Source of the DNA: Mesoterricola sediminis
GTDB taxonomy: Bacteria; Acidobacteriota; Holophagae; Holophagales; Holophagaceae
Reading direction: 5' to 3'
Assembly: GCF_030295425.1 (NCBI RefSeq)
Contig: NZ_AP027081.1
Location: 3,827,001-3,891,000, forward strand
Length of the DNA stretch: 64,000 nt
Part shown: positions 32,825 through 41,774 of the stretch, one piece after another
Numbering within the stretch: position 1 is the stretch's first letter
How the letters are laid out: each line of letters opens with the position of its first letter
Made by a program: the position numbers and the translations under genes
The notes under the pieces: model-generated
Told to the model about the DNA's origin: nothing
What the model saw: the letters and a program-made list of their open reading frames with translations, nothing else
Databases searched by the model: none

Positions 32825-35266
32825 ATGTGCGGAATCGTCTCCATCTGCTACGGGTCTGACAACGCGTCGCTGGGCGCCGAGGCCACTGAACTACTGAAAA
32901 GGCTTGAGTACCGTGGATACGATTCCACCGGCGGCGCCTTCGTGGACGGCGCCGGGGAGATCCGCCTCCTGAAGAAGGTGGGCGCCCCCAGCCGGGTCTG
33001 CTCCGCCATCGGCATCGACCGGGAGCGCGGCGCGCGGTTCATCGGCCAGGTGCGCTGGGCCACCTACGGCGCCGTCACCGACGTGAACAGCCAGCCCCAC
33101 CACGTCACCTGCCGGCTGCCCTTCGTGGGCGCCCACAACGGCAACATCTCGAACACCGACTCCCTGAAGGGCTGGCTCACGGACCTCGGGCACCGGGTCG
33201 TCTCGGACAACGACGGGGAGATGATCACCCACGTCGCCGAGGCGTTCTACGCCGACAACCTGGAAGCCCCCGCCGAGGCCCTCGAGGCCGGCCGCCGCGC
33301 CGCGGCGGCCCTCCCCGCCCCGCCCCCGGACGGGGCCCTCCTCCTCATGGACGCCGCGCGCCGGGCCGACGCCCGCGCTGAAGGCTCGTACGCCGCCGCC
33401 TTCTGCGACCCCCGGGTCCCCGGCGTCGTCGCGGTGAAGTCGGGCTCCTCCCTCTACGCCGGGATCGGCTCGGACGCGCACGGGCCCTTCGTCCTCGTCT
33501 CCAGCGACCTCACCAGCGTCCTCAGCAAGACCCGGATGCTCATCCCCCTGAGCGAAGGCGAGGGCATCTGGTTCACGGACCGGGAGTACGCCGTCTTCCC
33601 CCTGGCCGGGCCCCTGGCGCTCTCGGCCCCGAAGCCCCGCCGCTCCAAGCTCAACGTGCGGGACACCGGCCTGCGGCCCCCCTTCAAGTACTTCATGGAC
33701 CAGGAGATCGCCTCCTCCGCGGAGAACCTGGACGCCATCCTGCGCTACTACTTCCAGGACCCCGCCACCGAGGCCCTCCACCAGGCCTTCGAGGCCCGCC
33801 TGGACCTGGGCAAGGCCGTCCTGGCCAAGGCCGCGGCCCTGAACGAGGCCCCGGACGCCGAGGCCCTCCGGGAAGGGTTCGACAGGCTCCTGGACGATCC
33901 CGCCCTCGGGGAGCTGAGGGCCGCCGTGAAGCCCCACCGGGAGGCCCTCGGCGTCGGGGAGCCCTTCACCTCCGAGGAGCGGGGGCTGCTGGGGGACCTG
34001 GCCCGCCTGGCGCCCGGCGCCGCCGAGGACCTGGCCCTCTTCGACCGCCTTTTCGTGTGGAAGAAGCAGCGGCGCGTCTCGGGGCTCCTGCAGGAGCTCG
34101 CCAAGGCCATGCGCGAGGCCAAGGGCCGGATCTTCCTCGTGGCCTCCGGCACCTCGTACCACGCCGCGCTGGTGGGCGCCTACTTCTTCAACAACCTCGC
34201 GGGGGTGGCGGTCTTCCCGGCCAACCCGGGGACCTTCCGCTCCATGTACCTCAACACCCTGGAGCCGGGGGACCTGCTGGTGGGCATCACCCAGTCCGGC
34301 GAGACCAAGGACCTGGTGGATATCTTCCAGGACGTCCGGGCCCGGGTCCCCGCCCTCCGCCGGGTGGCCCTCGTGAACAACGAGAACAGCCGCATCCCCC
34401 AGGAGCTCTCGGAGTTCTACCTGCCCCTCCTCTGCGGCCCCGAGATCGCGGTGGCCGCCACCAAGAGCTTCCTCAACCAGATCGCCGTGCTCTACGCCCT
34501 CGCCGCCTCCTTCTCCATGAACGAGCGCCGCGTCGTCGAGCAGCTCCGGGCGGCCCGGGACCTCGTGGAGCGCACCCTGGCCGGGTGCGGCGAGGCCGTG
34601 GAGGCCGCCGCGCGCCGCCTCCACCTGGAGCCCAGCCTCCACATCCTCGGCACCGGCCTCATCGGCCTGGCCCGGGAGGGGGCCCTCAAGATCCGCGAGG
34701 TGGTGCTCAACCACGCCGAAGGGTACGACGCCGCCGAGTTCAAGCACGGGCCCAACACCATCCTCGGCAAGAACACCCTCTTCTCCATCGCGGACCTGGC
34801 GGGGCTCCTGGACGCCTACGAGGCCCGCCGGGACGGCAGCCCCTTCCCCGGCGGCATCGACGTCCTGCGGGCCAACCCCGACCTCGTCGAGTCCCACTTC
34901 TCCAACTACCCCCTCCTCTTCGTGTGCCCCCGGGACGAGCGGGACGTGCGGATCACCATCAGCCAGATCCACACCCACAAGATCCGGGGCGCCGACATCC
35001 TCCTCATCGCCGAGGCCGATCCCGACCTGGCCCTGGCCGTCGCCGGCCGGCCCATGGGCGACGACCGCTACCAGTCCCTCTACCTGGAGGTCCCGCCGGC
35101 CCCCGATCCGAACCTCTTCGTGTTCGCGGCGACCCTCCTCCTCCAGCGCCTCGCCTTCCGCATGTCGGTGCTCAAGATGGAGTATCTGGACCAGTTGCGG
35201 GTGGCCGACCACGGCGTCCACCCCGACAGTCCCAAGAACGTCTCCAAGTCCATCACCGTGGACTGA
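32825..35266 (+). CDS. GlmS-like glutamine amidotransferase/SIS protein, enlarged form
   Basis: 813 residues against about 610 for standard GlmS. The class II glutaminase domain (about 1-250) has the nucleophile Cys2 in MCGIVSICYG, RWATYG (the usual RWATHG His is Tyr) and AHNGNISN. An inserted helical region (about 280-430) is absent from GlmS. Two SIS domains follow: SGTSYHAAL and ITQSGETKDL in the first, EFKHGPNTI in the second. The C-terminal tail PKNVSKSITVD keeps the Lys of the sugar-phosphate site. It probably forms glucosamine 6-phosphate for peptidoglycan and LPS, but could be a divergent paralogue. Confidence 0.85.
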   Translation: MCGIVSICYGSDNASLGAEATELLKRLEYRGYDSTGGAFVDGAGEIRLLKKVGAPSRVCSAIGIDRERGARFIGQVRWATYGAVTDVNSQPHHVTCRLPFVGAHNGNISNTDSLKGWLTDLGHRVVSDNDGEMITHVAEAFYADNLEAPAEALEAGRRAAAALPAPPPDGALLLMDAARRADARAEGSYAAAFCDPRVPGVVAVKSGSSLYAGIGSDAHGPFVLVSSDLTSVLSKTRMLIPLSEGEGIWFTDREYAVFPLAGPLALSAPKPRRSKLNVRDTGLRPPFKYFMDQEIASSAENLDAILRYYFQDPATEALHQAFEARLDLGKAVLAKAAALNEAPDAEALREGFDRLLDDPALGELRAAVKPHREALGVGEPFTSEERGLLGDLARLAPGAAEDLALFDRLFVWKKQRRVSGLLQELAKAMREAKGRIFLVASGTSYHAALVGAYFFNNLAGVAVFPANPGTFRSMYLNTLEPGDLLVGITQSGETKDLVDIFQDVRARVPALRRVALVNNENSRIPQELSEFYLPLLCGPEIAVAATKSFLNQIAVLYALAASFSMNERRVVEQLRAARDLVERTLAGCGEAVEAAARRLHLEPSLHILGTGLIGLAREGALKIREVVLNHAEGYDAAEFKHGPNTILGKNTLFSIADLAGLLDAYEARRDGSPFPGGIDVLRANPDLVESHFSNYPLLFVCPRDERDVRITISQIHTHKIRGADILLIAEADPDLALAVAGRPMGDDRYQSLYLEVPPAPDPNLFVFAATLLLQRLAFRMSVLKMEYLDQLRVADHGVHPDSPKNVSKSITVD

Positions 35267-35606: not shown

Positions 35607-37307
35607 ATGACGAACAACCCATCCCACGACGCACCGGAGCTGGATGCCGCGACCCGGCATGCCCTGGAGAACGGCCTTTCCCGGCGCAGCTTCCTGACCC
35701 ACACGGCCCTCGGGGCGGCAGCGGTCGGCATGGTCGGCCTGCCCGGCGTCGCCGCGGCCGCCGCCGAGCCCGGCAAGGCCAAGGCCAAGGCCGCCGCGGC
35801 CCCCGCCGGCGAGTTCGGGAAGACGCCCGGCGCCACCCTGAACTTCCTGCCCAAGCCCAAGCCCATCCCCGAAAAGGCCATCAAGGAGACCCTCACCTTC
35901 GATGTGGTGGTGGTCGGCGCCGGCGCCTCGGGCGTCCCGGCGGCCCTCTCCGCCCATGAGGCCGGCGCCAAGGTCGCCGTCCTCCAGAAGGCCCCCTTCG
36001 CCGTCTCCCAGGGCAACACGGGCACCGGCATCGACCTGGCCAAGAGCGACAAGGCCGGCGTCGAGGCCCTGGTCGCCCTGATCGTGGGCAACAACAACCA
36101 TCGCAGCAACACCAAGCTGGTCCGCCAGTGGGCCTACAACTCCGGTGAAGCCGTCCGCTGGGTCATCGACCGCGCCAAGAAGGGCGGCAGCCCCGTCTTC
36201 GACCAGGGCAACGTCCAGCACGGCCCCAACCTGAAGGTGAACGGCTACCCCATGAGCTACGTCACCTCGTTCTTCGGCCCCAAGCCCTACACCACGGGCG
36301 ACGGCATGCGCGACCTGGCCAAGTACGCCGAAGCGCAGGGCGTGAAGTTCTTCTACCTCCACCCCGCGGCCCAGCTCGTGCAGGGGCGCAACGGCGAGGT
36401 GGTGGGCGTGATCGCCCAGAACGCCCAGGGCCAGTACATCCGGTTCATGGCCAAGAAGGGCGTCATCCTGGCGACGGGCGACTACCAGAGCAACAAGGCG
36501 ATGAGCGACTACTTCCTGCCCGACCTCAGGCACATGGGCCGGAAGCAGATGGACCGCGATGGCGACGGGTTCGTCATGGCCTTCTGGGCCGGGGCCGTCT
36601 TCGACCCCATCGGCCACACCAAGATGCTCCACGACTTCGACGCGGGGCCGGCCACCATGTGCGACATGCCCTTCCTGGCGGTCAACCGCGACGGCAAGCG
36701 CTTCGTCAGCGAGTGCGTGGAGATGTCCCTGCTCAACAACTACCTGAAGAACGAGAAGGACGCCGGCCACTACTGCCAGATCTTCGACGCGGACTACATG
36801 ACCCGCGCCGCGAAGTGGCCCGGTCGCCTCGTTCCCCCCGAGGGCCTGAAGAACTACATGCCCGACGTCCCCGGTCCCAAGAAGGGCGTGCTGGAGCCCT
36901 TCATCAACACCCACGTGGCCGACACCCTGGACGAACTGGCCCGCAAGCTGGGTCTGGATCCCGCCGCGCTGGCCGCGACGGTCAAGCGCTACAACGACCT
37001 GGCCGCGGCCGGCCGCGACGAGGACTTCGGCAACCCCGCGGACAAGATGGCCCCGGTGCTCAAGGCCCCCTTCTACGGGATTCACCGCGCCGTCCGGGTC
37101 TCGGCCATCGTGTCGGGCATGGTGGTGAACGAACGGCATAACGCCCTGGACGCCGACGGCAAGCCCATCAAGGGGCTCTACCTCGCCGGCAACCTGAGCG
37201 GCGGCTTCTACGGTGGCATCGATTACCCGATGGCAGTCCCCGGCCTCTCCTTGGGCCGGTGCTACACCGTCGGGTACCTCACCGGGAAGCACGTGGCGAG
37301 CCTCTGA
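35607..37307 (+). CDS. Tat-exported FAD-dependent reductase (fumarate reductase/flavocytochrome c-like flavoprotein)
   Basis: 566 residues. The Tat signal has SRRSFL at 25-30 and a hydrophobic stretch ending AAAA near 53. The FAD-binding fold starts at FDVVVVGAGASGVPAALSAHEAG and closes with GLYLAGNLSGGF, so this belongs to the FRD_SDH/FAD_binding_2 family and acts in the periplasm. The residues diagnostic of fumarate reduction are not seen: the TTRD Arg segment reads ECVEMS after GKRF, and the HHTMGG segment reads SAIVSGM. Another substrate is therefore likely. The next gene encodes its probable electron donor, a pentahaem cytochrome. The ATG at 35607 has GGAGGAC upstream. Confidence 0.88.
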   Translation: MTNNPSHDAPELDAATRHALENGLSRRSFLTHTALGAAAVGMVGLPGVAAAAAEPGKAKAKAAAAPAGEFGKTPGATLNFLPKPKPIPEKAIKETLTFDVVVVGAGASGVPAALSAHEAGAKVAVLQKAPFAVSQGNTGTGIDLAKSDKAGVEALVALIVGNNNHRSNTKLVRQWAYNSGEAVRWVIDRAKKGGSPVFDQGNVQHGPNLKVNGYPMSYVTSFFGPKPYTTGDGMRDLAKYAEAQGVKFFYLHPAAQLVQGRNGEVVGVIAQNAQGQYIRFMAKKGVILATGDYQSNKAMSDYFLPDLRHMGRKQMDRDGDGFVMAFWAGAVFDPIGHTKMLHDFDAGPATMCDMPFLAVNRDGKRFVSECVEMSLLNNYLKNEKDAGHYCQIFDADYMTRAAKWPGRLVPPEGLKNYMPDVPGPKKGVLEPFINTHVADTLDELARKLGLDPAALAATVKRYNDLAAAGRDEDFGNPADKMAPVLKAPFYGIHRAVRVSAIVSGMVVNERHNALDADGKPIKGLYLAGNLSGGFYGGIDYPMAVPGLSLGRCYTVGYLTGKHVASL

Positions 37308-37387
37308 GCCCGCCTCCGGCCCGTCCCTGGGGGTGGGGACGGGCCGGCCGCACCTCACCCCTCCCTCGCCCATCACAGGAAGGAACC

Positions 37388-37870
37388 ATGATCCGAATTT
37401 GGAGATTTCTGCCATCGTCCCTCGCGCTCCTCGCCGCCCTCACCCTGGGCGTCCAGGCCCAGGCCAAGCCGGCCACGGGGGCGGAGCCCATCAAGCTGCC
37501 CGCGGGCCACGTGTCCATCCAGGGCAAGTCCTTCAAGGACTGCAAGACCTGCCACACGGGGGCCCAGGGCAAGCCGGCCAGCCTAGTCGGCAAGCTGAAG
37601 GGCGTCCAGATCCACGCCCTCGCCGGCGTCACCTGCGCCCAGTGCCACGACGGGAAGGGCAAGCCCGCCCCCGTGCCGACCTGGACCTGCGTGGGCTGCC
37701 ACGGCCCCACGAAGGACCTCGCCGCCCGCACCGCCCAGGTGAAGCCCCACAACCCGCATCAGTCCCGCCACTACGGCACGGACGCCGCCTGCGCCAAGTG
37801 CCACCACATGCACCGCGCCTCGGAGAACGACTGCCTGCAGTGCCACGCTTTCCAGTTCCAGGTGCCCTAG
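37388..37870 (+). CDS. Periplasmic pentahaem c-type cytochrome
   Basis: 160 residues with a Sec signal peptide (about 1-26, cleavage near AQA). Five CxxCH haem sites lie at 52-56, 83-87, 101-105, 135-139 and 149-153, with additional His residues (for example 41, 76, 121, 124, 128) available as distal ligands. It resembles the small cytochrome c3-like subunit that donates electrons to periplasmic flavin reductases, though flavocytochrome c3 and the methacrylate reductase cytochrome carry four haems rather than five. It follows the flavoprotein gene by 80 bp with an AGGAAGGAA ribosome site, and a strong terminator comes after. Confidence 0.92.
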   Translation: MIRIWRFLPSSLALLAALTLGVQAQAKPATGAEPIKLPAGHVSIQGKSFKDCKTCHTGAQGKPASLVGKLKGVQIHALAGVTCAQCHDGKGKPAPVPTWTCVGCHGPTKDLAARTAQVKPHNPHQSRHYGTDAACAKCHHMHRASENDCLQCHAFQFQVP

Positions 37871-37968: not shown

Positions 37969-38190
37969 TCATGGTTTGCGCGGCTCGGTGGGGGCCGGCT
38001 GGAGGTGGGCGGGCTTGTCGCAGCAGTTGGGACAGCCGGCCTTCTCGCACGCTTTGTCGCAATGCCGGTCGCAATTGCGGTCCGGCTTGCAGCAGGCGTT
38101 GGAACAACAGGTCTTGCGAGGCTTGGCCTCGTGCTGGCCCGCGAAGAGGACCAGGGAGGCGGTGAAGAAGGGGAGCAGCAGTCTGGACAT
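37969..38190 (-). CDS. Small secreted Cys-rich peptide (10 Cys)
   Basis: 73 residues. A signal peptide (MSRLLLPFFTASLVLFAG, about 1-18) precedes a mature region with ten cysteines at 28, 29, 33, 34, 40, 44, 48, 53, 56 and 57, three of them in CC pairs, then a Pro-rich tail. Spacing does not match CxxCH haem sites. It could bind metal like a periplasmic metallothionein or be a disulfide-rich peptide. The gene is convergent with the cytochrome operon and has GGAG upstream of its ATG. No family recognised; the reading frame is supported by signal peptide and Cys clustering. Confidence 0.65.
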   Translation of the reverse strand: MSRLLLPFFTASLVLFAGQHEAKPRKTCCSNACCKPDRNCDRHCDKACEKAGCPNCCDKPAHLQPAPTEPRKP

Positions 38191-38424: not shown

Positions 38425-40347
38425 ATGATCGAGAAGCTTGACTACGAATCGGCGGGCTTGATCTCGGGCCTGGAAGTGCATCAGCAGCTTCTCACCGCCC
38501 ACAAGCTCTTCTGCCGCTGCCCCGCGGGGCTCTACACCCACACCCACGACGGCGAGGTGCTCCGCCACATGCGGCCCACCCTCTCCGAGCTGGGCGAGTA
38601 CGACGGCACGGCGCTGATGGAGTTCAAGACGCGCAAGGAGATCATCTATCTCCTGAACCACCTCAACGTGTGCACCTATGAGATGGACGACACCCCGCCC
38701 TTCCTGGTGAACCAGGAGGCCATCGACGTCGCCATCGAGCTCTGCCTGGCCATGGGCATGGACATCATCGACGAGGTCCACATCGCCCGGAAGCAGTACC
38801 TGGACGGCTCCATTCCCACCGGCTTCCAGCGCACGGCCATCGTGGGCATGAACGGCGGGATGCCCTTCCACGGGCGCACCCTCAGCGTCACCCACGTCTC
38901 GATCGAGGAGGACTCCTGCCGCGAGGTGAGCGACAAGGGCCACCGCATCGTCTGGCGCACGGACCGCCTGGGCATGCCCCTCACGGAGACCGTGACCGGC
39001 CCCGACCTGCGGACCCCCCAGGAGGTGCGGGACGCCATCACCCTCTGCGGCCTCGTGGCCCGGACCACGGGCCGGGTCCGCACCGGCATCGGCGCCAGCC
39101 GCCAGGACGTCAATGTCAGCGTCAGGGGCGGCAGCCGGGTCGAGATCAAGGGCGTGCCCAAGGCGGCCTGGGCGGTGAAGCTCGTGCACAACGAGGGCAT
39201 CCGCCAGGTCAACCTGCTCCGCCTGCGCGACGAGCTCCACCGGCGCGGCTGGCGGGAGCCCGGCGATGTCCGCACCCACGTGGCCGATGTCACCGACGTG
39301 TTCCAGTCGGTGGACCTGGGCTTCATGCAGCGCGCCATCCGGAGCGGCGGCCGGATCTTCGCGGTCCGCCTGGAGGGCGGCCTGGGCCTGGCCCAGTGGC
39401 CCACCCAGCCGGAGACCACCTTCCTGGACGAACTCGCGGGCCGGGTCCGGGTCATCGCCTGCCTGGACGAAGCGCCCATTGTGCTCAGCGGCCAGCAGAT
39501 GCCCGAATTCCCCCTGAAGCACCGCACCCTCGAGCGCCTCCGCCGGAAGCTGCGCATGGGGGAGAACGACGACTACTTCATCGTCTTCGGACCCGAGGTG
39601 GACTGCCGCACGGCCGCCGAGGAGATCCGGATCCGCTTCGTGGACGCCCTCAAAGGGGTGCCCCAGGAGACCCGCCAGTCCCTGGCCGGCGGGTTCACCA
39701 CCTTCGAGCGCATCCTGCCCGGCCCGGACCGGATGTACCCCGACACCGACTCGCCCCCCACCCGCATCACCGCCGAGCGCGTGGAGGCGGCCCGGGCCCG
39801 CATGCGGCCCACCCCCTGGGCGCGGTTCCACCAGTTCGGCGCCTGGGGCGTGCCCCCGGAGACCACGGAGTACCTCATCCGCAGGGGCGGCGTCGCCCTC
39901 GTGGACGCCGTGGTGGCCGCGACGGGCGCGGACGGCCTCCTGGCCTCCGTGGAGATCGGGCAGCGGGCCAAGGCCCTCCACCGCCGCGGCCTGCCCGTGG
40001 AACGGCTGGGCGCCACCGAATGGGTCCAGATCTTCGACCTCTTCACCGGCGGCCAGATCCCCCGCGAGGGCATCCAGATGCTCGCCGCCCACATGGCCGC
40101 CAACCCGGGCCGGGACGCCCAGGCGTCCATGGAGGCCCTGGGCATCGGCGTCCAGCCCCGGGAGGCCTGGGCCCGCGAGCTGTCCGCCCTCTCCATGGAG
40201 GACTACCGCATCGACAAGGGCGACTCGGACGGCAAGCGCCTGCGCTTCCTGGCCGGGCGCGCCATGAAGCTCCTCCTCGGCAAGGCCCCCGCGAAGGACG
40301 TGGCCGACTACCTCAGGACCCGGCTCACCCAGGAGGCTTCCCGATGA
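38425..40347 (+). CDS. gatE: Glu-tRNA(Gln) amidotransferase subunit E (archaeal type)
   Basis: 640 residues, the length of archaeal GatE. The N-terminal GatB/E cradle starts GLISGLEVHQQLLT (residues about 12-25) and includes the zinc-type Cys in KLFCRCP. Motifs of the kinase/transamidase core follow (SIPTGFQRTAIVG, SRQDVNVSVRGGSRVEIKG), then an AspRS-like GAD insertion (about 285-400) unique to GatE, and helical plus tail domains contacting tRNA. It phosphorylates Glu-tRNA(Gln) and accepts ammonia from GatD. The gene couples to gatD by ATGA. The GatDE pair is textbook archaeal, so its presence beside normal bacterial genes is notable. Confidence 0.92.
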   Translation: MIEKLDYESAGLISGLEVHQQLLTAHKLFCRCPAGLYTHTHDGEVLRHMRPTLSELGEYDGTALMEFKTRKEIIYLLNHLNVCTYEMDDTPPFLVNQEAIDVAIELCLAMGMDIIDEVHIARKQYLDGSIPTGFQRTAIVGMNGGMPFHGRTLSVTHVSIEEDSCREVSDKGHRIVWRTDRLGMPLTETVTGPDLRTPQEVRDAITLCGLVARTTGRVRTGIGASRQDVNVSVRGGSRVEIKGVPKAAWAVKLVHNEGIRQVNLLRLRDELHRRGWREPGDVRTHVADVTDVFQSVDLGFMQRAIRSGGRIFAVRLEGGLGLAQWPTQPETTFLDELAGRVRVIACLDEAPIVLSGQQMPEFPLKHRTLERLRRKLRMGENDDYFIVFGPEVDCRTAAEEIRIRFVDALKGVPQETRQSLAGGFTTFERILPGPDRMYPDTDSPPTRITAERVEAARARMRPTPWARFHQFGAWGVPPETTEYLIRRGGVALVDAVVAATGADGLLASVEIGQRAKALHRRGLPVERLGATEWVQIFDLFTGGQIPREGIQMLAAHMAANPGRDAQASMEALGIGVQPREAWARELSALSMEDYRIDKGDSDGKRLRFLAGRAMKLLLGKAPAKDVADYLRTRLTQEASR

Positions 40348-41774
40348 GCGCCGCCATCCCCCTGAACGAGCGTGACGACCGGTTCCAGGGCTACCGCGGA
40401 CCCGCGCGCGACGCCCTCGAGCGCTACGCCATCGGCGTCTGGAGCGAGGTGGAGATCGTCAACGACCGCGGCTCGGTCTTCAAGGGCGTGATCCTCCCCC
40501 GCAGCGAGACCTTCGACGACCTCCACATCGTGGTCAAGCTGTTCAACGGCTACAACGTCGGCGTCGAGGCCACCCGCATCGCCTCCGCCGTCGAGACCGG
40601 ATACCGCAAGGCCGTCTACAAGATCCCCGAGAAGGCCTTCCCCTGCGACTTCCGCAAGAAGAACGTCACCCTGCTGGGCACGGGCGGCACCATCGCCTCC
40701 CGCCTGGACTACCGCACCGGCGCCGTGATCCCGGCCTTCACCCCCGGCGAGCTCTACGGCGCCGTCCCGGAGCTGGCCGACATCGCGAACATGGAGACCA
40801 AGAAGCTCTTCGGGGTCTTCAGCGAGAACATGGGCCCCGAGCAGTACAAGGCCCTGGCCAAGGCCATCGGCGAGGAGATCGCCAAGGGCGTGGACGGCAT
40901 CGTGGTCGGCCACGGCACGGACACCATGAGCCACACGGGGGCGATCCTCAGCTTCATGGTCCAGAACTCCCCGGTGCCCATCGTCCTCGTCGGCAGCCAG
41001 CGCAGTTCCGACCGGCCCTCCTCCGACGCGGCCCTCAACCTCATGAACGCGGTCCGGACCGCGGCCGAGTGCGACATCGCCGAAGTCATGCTCTGCATGT
41101 TCGGCCCGACGTCGGACAACTACGACCTGCTGCACCGCGGCACCCGCTGCCGGAAGATGCACTCCAGCTACCGGAGCACCTTCCGCACCATCGGCGCCAC
41201 CCCCCTGGCCACCGTGAGCCGGGAGACCAACGAGCACGGGAAGCACTTCACCTACCTCACCGACGACTACCTGAAGCGGGACCGCAGCCGCGTGCCCATC
41301 ATCAACCCGGCCTTCGAGGAGAAGGTCACCATCCAGTACTACTACCCGAACTTCAACCCCGACATCATCGACGCCCTCTCCGACCTGAACTACCGGGGCC
41401 TCGTGATCGCCGGGACGGGCCTGGGCCACATCAACAAGCCCCTGTACCCCGCCGTCAAGCGCGCCATCCAGAAGGGCATGACCGTGGTCATGACGGTCCA
41501 GACCATCTGGGGCTACGCCCAGATGTACGTCTACGACACCGGCCGCGACCTGCTCAACCTGGGGATCATCCCCATGGACAACATGCTCCCCGAGACGGCC
41601 TACATGAAGCTCGCCTGGGTCCTGGGCCAGACCGACGATCCCAAGCGGATCCGGGAGATGCTGCTCACCCCCGTGAACCACGAGATCACGCCCCGGGAGC
41701 CGCACAACGGCTACCTCGTGCTCCAGGGCGGGCTCCCCGAGGTGGAAGCCTTCATCGGGCAGCACTGGAAGTAG
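40344..41774 (+). CDS. gatD: Glu-tRNA(Gln) amidotransferase subunit D (archaeal type)
   Basis: 476 residues. The N-terminal GatD-specific beta-barrel domain (about 30-100, with VWSEVEIVN and KGVILPRSE) distinguishes it from plain L-asparaginase. The asparaginase-like domain carries the catalytic residues: Thr116 in GTGGTIAS, Thr192-Asp193 in GHGTDTMSHTG and Lys271 in RGTRCRKMHSS. SQRSSDRPSSDAALNL is the usual GatD loop. It releases ammonia from Gln for GatE-bound Glu-tRNA(Gln). The start overlaps the gatE stop and has AGGAGG. A hairpin terminator follows. Confidence 0.92.
   Translation: MSAAIPLNERDDRFQGYRGPARDALERYAIGVWSEVEIVNDRGSVFKGVILPRSETFDDLHIVVKLFNGYNVGVEATRIASAVETGYRKAVYKIPEKAFPCDFRKKNVTLLGTGGTIASRLDYRTGAVIPAFTPGELYGAVPELADIANMETKKLFGVFSENMGPEQYKALAKAIGEEIAKGVDGIVVGHGTDTMSHTGAILSFMVQNSPVPIVLVGSQRSSDRPSSDAALNLMNAVRTAAECDIAEVMLCMFGPTSDNYDLLHRGTRCRKMHSSYRSTFRTIGATPLATVSRETNEHGKHFTYLTDDYLKRDRSRVPIINPAFEEKVTIQYYYPNFNPDIIDALSDLNYRGLVIAGTGLGHINKPLYPAVKRAIQKGMTVVMTVQTIWGYAQMYVYDTGRDLLNLGIIPMDNMLPETAYMKLAWVLGQTDDPKRIREMLLTPVNHEITPREPHNGYLVLQGGLPEVEAFIGQHWK

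Follow-up and report, generated by a model that had tools for sequence, protein, structure and literature searches.

The window, a stretch of 64,000 nucleotides from the complete 4.52 Mb genome of Mesoterricola sediminis (Acidobacteriota, Holophagaceae; positions 3,827,001-3,891,000), carries a flavoprotein gene and a multihaem cytochrome gene separated by 80 nt (Table 1). The ATG of the flavoprotein gene is preceded by a GGAGG-like site, and its product matches FAD_binding_2 (PF00890; E = 4.3e-37, 128.7 bits for a gathering cut-off of 20.4). The product of the second gene, with CxxCH motifs starting at residues 52, 83, 101, 135 and 149, matches PF14537 over residues 76-153 (1.1e-15, 58.3 bits for a cut-off of 25). 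These ORFs and matches, together with the SRRSFL motif, confirm the first-pass annotation, which had described a Tat-exported FAD protein followed by a cytochrome with five CxxCH motifs. All of the 46 orthologues that were inspected have the Tat motif. Scans for promoters and terminators gave no result. A haem-free Tat flavoprotein followed by a separate exported multihaem cytochrome is also the arrangement of the methacrylate system Mrd/Mcc of Geobacter sulfurreducens AM-1, where both genes lie in one operon (PMC4427408); the likeness is one of layout, and the window cytochrome differs by its five haems.

Table 1. Coordinates of the flavoprotein-cytochrome pair and of its features in the window.
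Feature	Position	Strand	Description or basis
Flavoprotein gene, proposed catalytic subunit	35607..37307	+	566 aa, Tat-exported; ORF and translation; PF00890
Approximate Tat signal region, residues 1-53 (SRRSFL at residues 25-30)	35607..35765	+	sequence
Met373 codon at the Fcc3 Arg402 / UrdA Arg411 position	36723..36725	+	alignment
Ser499-Ala500 replacing Fcc3 His504-His505	37101..37106	+	alignment
D539-Y540-P541...G546 motif replacing the Fcc3 NR(544)LGG segment	37221..37244	+	alignment
Pentahaem cytochrome gene, proposed electron donor	37388..37870	+	160 aa, Sec-exported; C-terminal Fcc3-type tetrahaem module
LPAGH remnant in the cytochrome	37496..37510	+	alignment with hexahaem cytochromes of G001 and of this genome
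Extra N-terminal haem motif CKTCH	37541..37555	+	alignment with hexahaem relatives
Haem motif CAQCH, first of the tetrahaem module	37634..37648	+	
Haem motif CVGCH	37688..37702	+	
Haem motif CAKCH	37790..37804	+	
Haem motif CLQCH	37832..37846	+	

Several other genes lie close to the pair. Convergent with the cytochrome gene, a 73-aa ORF (37969-38190, reverse strand) encodes a Cys-rich exported product, with a signal-like N-terminus and then a Cys-rich tail. Adjacent genes on the forward strand (38425-40347 and about 40344-41774) encode GatE and GatD of the archaeal-type Glu-tRNA(Gln) amidotransferase, both above their NCBIfam equivalog cut-offs (477.5 vs 456 and 483.9 vs 310, respectively), and the host also has a full GatB gene (G000:C1:4519037). 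On the other side of the pair, a GlmS-like protein of 813 aa (32825-35266, forward strand) scores about 288 against GlmS models of 601-607 positions with cut-offs of 381 and 418; this longer protein may differ in function from GlmS.

The C-terminal part of the window cytochrome matches the haem domain of Fcc3, the terminal F-x-F-x-x-P included. Four haems are the norm in orthologues and close relatives, with six in one close relative (G001) and five in the window. We found that the window cytochrome keeps the LPAGH of the hexahaem forms without the CxxCH that precedes LPAGH there, so that its five haems are most simply explained by the loss of one of six. The pentahaem form would thus look like a six-haem form minus one motif. 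The idea that five haems define the system was rejected, since orthologues have four haems and the window form is best aligned as a hexahaem relative lacking one motif. Hence, the five motifs reported by the first-pass annotation are real but the fifth haem is incidental.

When scored against curated models, the flavoprotein was best matched in NCBIfam by the vinyl phenol reductase VprA (NF053717). This alignment runs end to end over residues 96-564, the Y540-P region included, but its score of 147.1 bits is far below the cut-off of 600, so we take the similarity to VprA as a lead rather than as membership. VprA differs in being LysR-regulated in Lactobacillus, and the part of its description that we consulted mentions no haem partner (PMC10295242). 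The window protein also stays below the cut-off of the flavocytochrome c model TIGR01813 (143.5 bits vs 285.45), on which a paralogue from the same genome scores 433.5, and a Pfam search found no FMN_bind domain in it. An AlphaFold2 model was built from a 35-sequence alignment (pLDDT 83.7, pTM 0.83), and Foldseek ranked UrdA first with this model (9e-31). By VIA-align, Z scores were 35.1 for 1qo8, 34.9 for UrdA and 33.7 for both 3-ketosteroid delta1-dehydrogenase (KSTD, 7p18) and cyclohexanone dehydrogenase. With scores so nearly tied, fold alone cannot choose between a reductase and a dehydrogenase.

Orthologues at 67-72% identity are present in eight other Holophagaceae genomes. A scan of named genomes returned matches at 60-71% in Geomonas, Desulfuromonadaceae, Desulfosediminicola, Desulfobulbaceae, many Shewanella, Rubrivivax and Xanthobacteraceae, as well as in Myxococcota, Planctomycetota and Bacteroidota; matches at about 50% were found in Eggerthella, Adlercreutzia and an Oscillospiraceae MAG. 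Thirty of these sequences grouped as a single clade in a maximum-likelihood tree (support 100/100, stem 0.91), separate from Fcc3, from UrdA and from the remaining Holophagaceae module enzymes; several branches of this tree are long, L137 inside the clade being one of them. Sequence comparison therefore strongly supports a clade that spans eight phyla at 49-72% identity, and this family is apparently undescribed so far. Within the Acidobacteriota, the orthologue is patchy (12 of 297 genomes), which together with the spread across phyla suggests horizontal transfer of the family; the plasmid records searched contained no orthologue.

Active-site residues were then read against Fcc3 (1qjd, numbering checked at ten residues) and UrdA (numbering checked at eight). 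First, the general acid (Arg402 in Fcc3, Arg411 in UrdA) is replaced by Met373, an assignment anchored by the preceding RF-x-x-E motif, and Met occupies this position in 29 of the 30 clade members. Second, Ser499-Ala500 stand where Fcc3 has His504-His505, with Ser499 kept in all 30. Third, the segment of Fcc3 Arg544 and UrdA Arg560 has become D539-Y540-P-x-x-x-x-G546, which is four residues longer and in which D539 and Y540 are invariant (30/30). Fcc3 His504 and Arg544 are the carboxylate ligands. The proton path Glu378/Arg381 of Fcc3 falls in an alignment gap, within a region (about Fcc3 363-381) that is gappy and less certain, and the aromatic-lid region around UrdA Phe245 aligns poorly with the flavoprotein loop. 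In UrdA terms, Arg411, His520, Arg560 and Asp388 correspond to Met373, Ser499, the DYP insertion region and a gap, respectively. The roles of Arg402/Arg411, Arg560, His520 and the Glu378/Arg381 proton path have been described previously (PMC10882135).

In the same genome, a fused flavocytochrome keeps the canonical EIGTRD, HYTMGG and GANRLGGNS elements and a second two-gene pair has HHCMGG and VRLGS, which indicates that fumarate- or enoate-type chemistry has separate paralogues. The replacement of the fumarate-site residues, already noted in the first-pass annotation, thus holds against Fcc3, UrdA and this fused fumarate reductase-like protein alike; sequence alignment restores neither the Arg nor the His, and the AlphaFold2 model matches Fcc3 and UrdA over the whole domain. 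Compared to the flavocytochrome c fumarate reductase Fcc3 of Shewanella (1qjd, 1qo8), the window system shares the fold of the FAD domain and the tetrahaem electron-input module, but it is made of two genes with five haems and has no equivalents of Arg402, His504, Arg544, Glu378 and Arg381. Likewise, the urocanate reductase UrdA (6t85/6t86; PMC10882135) shares the FAD domain fold, with the best Foldseek E-value and the second highest VIA-align Z, but the window protein has no equivalents of Arg411, Arg560, His520 and Asp388 and lacks FMN_bind, the N-terminal domain that serves UrdA as electron input and that is found in the clade member L137.

Besides Y540 and D539, the clade-invariant residues are H342, D343, D345, K226 and R551; among further basic residues, K339 is invariant and H493/R494 are conserved. 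Since K226, K339, R551 and H493/R494 could bind a carboxylate, the enzyme might act on (hydroxy)cinnamates or other enoates and hold the carboxylate in a new way, in which case losing the Arg and His of Fcc3 would not imply a neutral substrate. Cinnamate specificity has reportedly arisen several times in this superfamily, and the esterases that adjoin several orthologues (see below) could release hydroxycinnamates. However, all canonical carboxylate ligands were lost together, other modules of the same genome keep the canonical HH-xMGG and RLG for an enoate-type job, and the phenol-type sensors found beside three orthologues belong to a small-phenol-binding family. Taking both sides into account, we consider an enoate-type reductase unlikely.

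In 36 of 36 didermic orthologous loci, the gene that directly follows the flavoprotein gene encodes four or more CxxCH motifs, a pairing that is not due to chance. In thirty of these loci, the Tat flavoprotein is soluble and its partner is a small tetrahaem cytochrome c; in the other six (L109, L117, L121, L122, L126 and L138), the flavoprotein is a Tat lipoprotein and the cytochrome is Cgr1-like and anchored in the membrane. The localisation of the flavoprotein thus tracks the type of its partner. No cytochrome is adjacent in the ten monoderm loci, where eight of the ten flavoproteins fit the lipobox pattern, that of L133 narrowly misses it and that of L137 is fused to FMN_bind. In this Oscillospiraceae orthologue (L137:5422-7422), the fusion is N-terminal. 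The window pair resembles the cardiac glycoside reductase Cgr1/Cgr2 of Eggerthella lenta in combining a Tat FAD reductase with a c-type cytochrome, and Cgr2 is also devoid of most fumarate, urocanate and KSTD active-site residues (PMC5953540). Cgr1-like partners occur with some orthologues elsewhere (119.5 bits on the Cgr1 model, NF051471); the window cytochrome, with 25.5 bits, is far below its cut-off of 340. The reading of the pair as an extracytoplasmic respiratory reductase, put forward in the first-pass annotation, is thus backed by the conserved c-type pairing, by Tat export and by a partner homologous to the tetrahaem domain of Fcc3. It is probably a variant, with a different active site, of the known flavin reductases that work in the periplasm as two components.

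The same comparisons bear on the direction of electron flow, as the flavoprotein could instead work as a dehydrogenase in the periplasm, oxidising a phenolic or cyclic ketone and passing electrons through the cytochrome to Fe(III) or a quinone. KSTD and cyclohexanone dehydrogenase (7p18, 4c3x, 8am3) share its fold (Z 32-34), come about as close to the predicted model as Fcc3 and UrdA do, and have a GN...YP...G segment in place of the Fcc3 NRLGG; Y540-P aligns with the YPG motif of KSTD, in a loop longer than that of KSTD. The KSTD oxyanion pair is Tyr487/Gly491, and the catalytic Tyr of KstD1 is Tyr318. Several of the hosts are able to reduce Fe(III). Moreover, DmpR/EtpR-type regulators, akin to those described below, normally control phenol-catabolic genes (PMC4630880). 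Against an oxidising enzyme, the position of the KSTD catalytic Tyr, which aligns with Fcc3 Arg402 and is Tyr in KSTD 7p18, is Met373 in the window protein, its partner is of the Fcc3 electron-input type, six orthologues have a Cgr1/NapC-like membrane cytochrome of the class that feeds reductases, and the gut Eggerthellaceae orthologues have no adjacent cytochrome that could accept electrons. We therefore hold oxidation to be quite unlikely, and the pair is probably a reductase fed by its cytochrome.

The neighbourhoods of the orthologues point to a class of acceptor. Six of the eight relatives in the Holophagaceae have, upstream of the two genes, a Gram-negative porin and an AraC regulator that carries a cupin-like sensor. 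This linkage is lost in the window, where neither regulator nor porin stands beside the pair; the closest porin, which is the orthologue, is at 3,663,095, about 200 kb away, and the genome has a porin-flavoprotein-hexahaem-AraC module at 2.285 Mb. A module AraC - porin - flavoprotein - multihaem cytochrome recurs in Holophagaceae (L070, L073, L085, L086, L087 and L088), in which the porin and regulator stay similar and the flavoprotein is swapped (about 25% identical to that of the window), sometimes in tandem. In two loci of genus g9 (L067 and L069), the upstream genes are not AraC and porin but encode an oxidoreductase of the Old Yellow Enzyme type and a peroxidase-like protein with a thioredoxin fold.

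Outside the Holophagaceae, the neighbours of Shewanella orthologues are a GntR regulator and an OprD porin. A sigma-54 regulator with an XylR_N domain (PF06505) adjoins the orthologue in two Geomonas species, Desulfosediminicola, Desulfuromonas and a Desulfuromonadaceae MAG, and these six XylR_N domains are the only ones in the five genomes (four lineages). In DmpR and MopR, the hydroxyl group of the phenol is held by a His and a Trp (PMC7264223, PMC10715001). The zinc ligands are kept in all five adjacent regulators and the phenol-anchoring pair in three; the two Geomonas regulators have Ser/Met at the anchor, so that the claim that all of them keep it was discarded. The neighbouring regulator in Xanthobacteraceae has no XylR_N. 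As these regulator neighbourhoods are related by descent, they do not count as fully independent cases. In addition, L108 has a LysR gene and a Phenol_MetA_deg outer-membrane protein upstream, L137 has as its immediate upstream neighbour one of the two alpha-L-rhamnosidases of its genome, and the Bacteroidota loci L126 and L138 have an alpha-L-rhamnosidase nearby with carboxylesterases, in genomes with 8-9 rhamnosidases each; in the acidobacterial loci L156 and L157, a PF00756 esterase is close upstream. Together, the aromatic sensors, Phenol_MetA_deg, rhamnosidases and esterases point towards phenolic compounds of plant origin.

Two further observations concern single neighbourhoods. In an acidobacterial MAG (L122:3122-5896), an AFOR-family oxidoreductase and a ferredoxin-type gene are directly upstream of the pair; a link to AFOR tungsten enzymes was dismissed, as neither of the related loci, L156 and L157, shows it. 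A Pfam search of the 403-aa gene found downstream in Geomonas, and of its Desulfuromonadaceae homologue, returned no family.

Aromatic-responsive regulators could also signal toxicity, and together with the patchy distribution in Acidobacteriota this might fit an enzyme that detoxifies reactive phenolics or quinones instead of one that conserves energy by respiration. We regard this as improbable, because a dedicated multihaem donor, the recruitment of porins and a coupling kept across eight phyla fit an acceptor pathway, and no stress genes recur among the neighbours examined.

The anatomy of the locus, the pairing, the loss of the acid and carboxylate-binding residues of fumarate and urocanate reductases, the clade membership and the neighbour associations are established. 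From these we infer substrate and direction, and we propose, at a probability of about 0.5, that the pair forms a periplasmic respiratory reductase of two parts, whose acceptor is a phenolic or phenylpropanoid compound. The first-pass annotation had left the acceptor unnamed: its exclusion of a fumarate-type site stands, and genomic context now narrows the class towards phenolics, to which we lean slightly. A literature search on caffeate- or vinylphenol-type respiration yielded nothing useful.

In the proposed route, electrons would leave the menaquinol pool through a quinol dehydrogenase or a periplasmic cytochrome network, reach the multihaem cytochrome and pass to the FAD of the Tat-exported flavoprotein. 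NapC/NirT-type candidates are present in the genome, one of them beside a cytochrome c552 gene. A hydride from FAD N5 would then be transferred to an activated acceptor, most likely a C=C bond, and the acceptor would most likely be a plant-type phenolic such as a vinyl- or propenylphenol, a hydroxystilbene, a phenylpropanoid or a phenylpropanoid ester. In place of the Arg acid, Y540, which lies in the column of the KSTD oxyanion Tyr, or H342, D343 and D345 are candidate proton donors or might bind the phenol or carbonyl oxygen.

A broader and more tentative proposal, which we consider possible though doubtful, is that this cross-phylum periplasmic family lets anaerobes of soil, sediment and gut respire neutral plant phenolics (vinyl- and propenylphenols, hydroxystilbenes and related enones) as terminal acceptors, with proton donation that dispenses with the catalytic Arg and with interchangeable donors, namely soluble tetra- to hexahaem cytochromes c, membrane Cgr1-like cytochromes c or a fused FMN domain. 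The interest of the family lies in its clear boundaries, its non-canonical site, its phenol-sensing neighbours and its spread over eight phyla, and its activity is directly assayable. The prediction can be tested directly in culturable hosts, that is Geothrix, Geomonas, Shewanella, Desulfosediminicola and Adlercreutzia. If it is true, these enzymes would represent a natural flavin-dependent reduction without the arginine acid of Fcc3 and UrdA, one well-defined clade would serve as a marker gene for phenolic respiration, and phenolic plant debris would be a respiratory electron sink as well as food in anoxic soils, sediments and guts.
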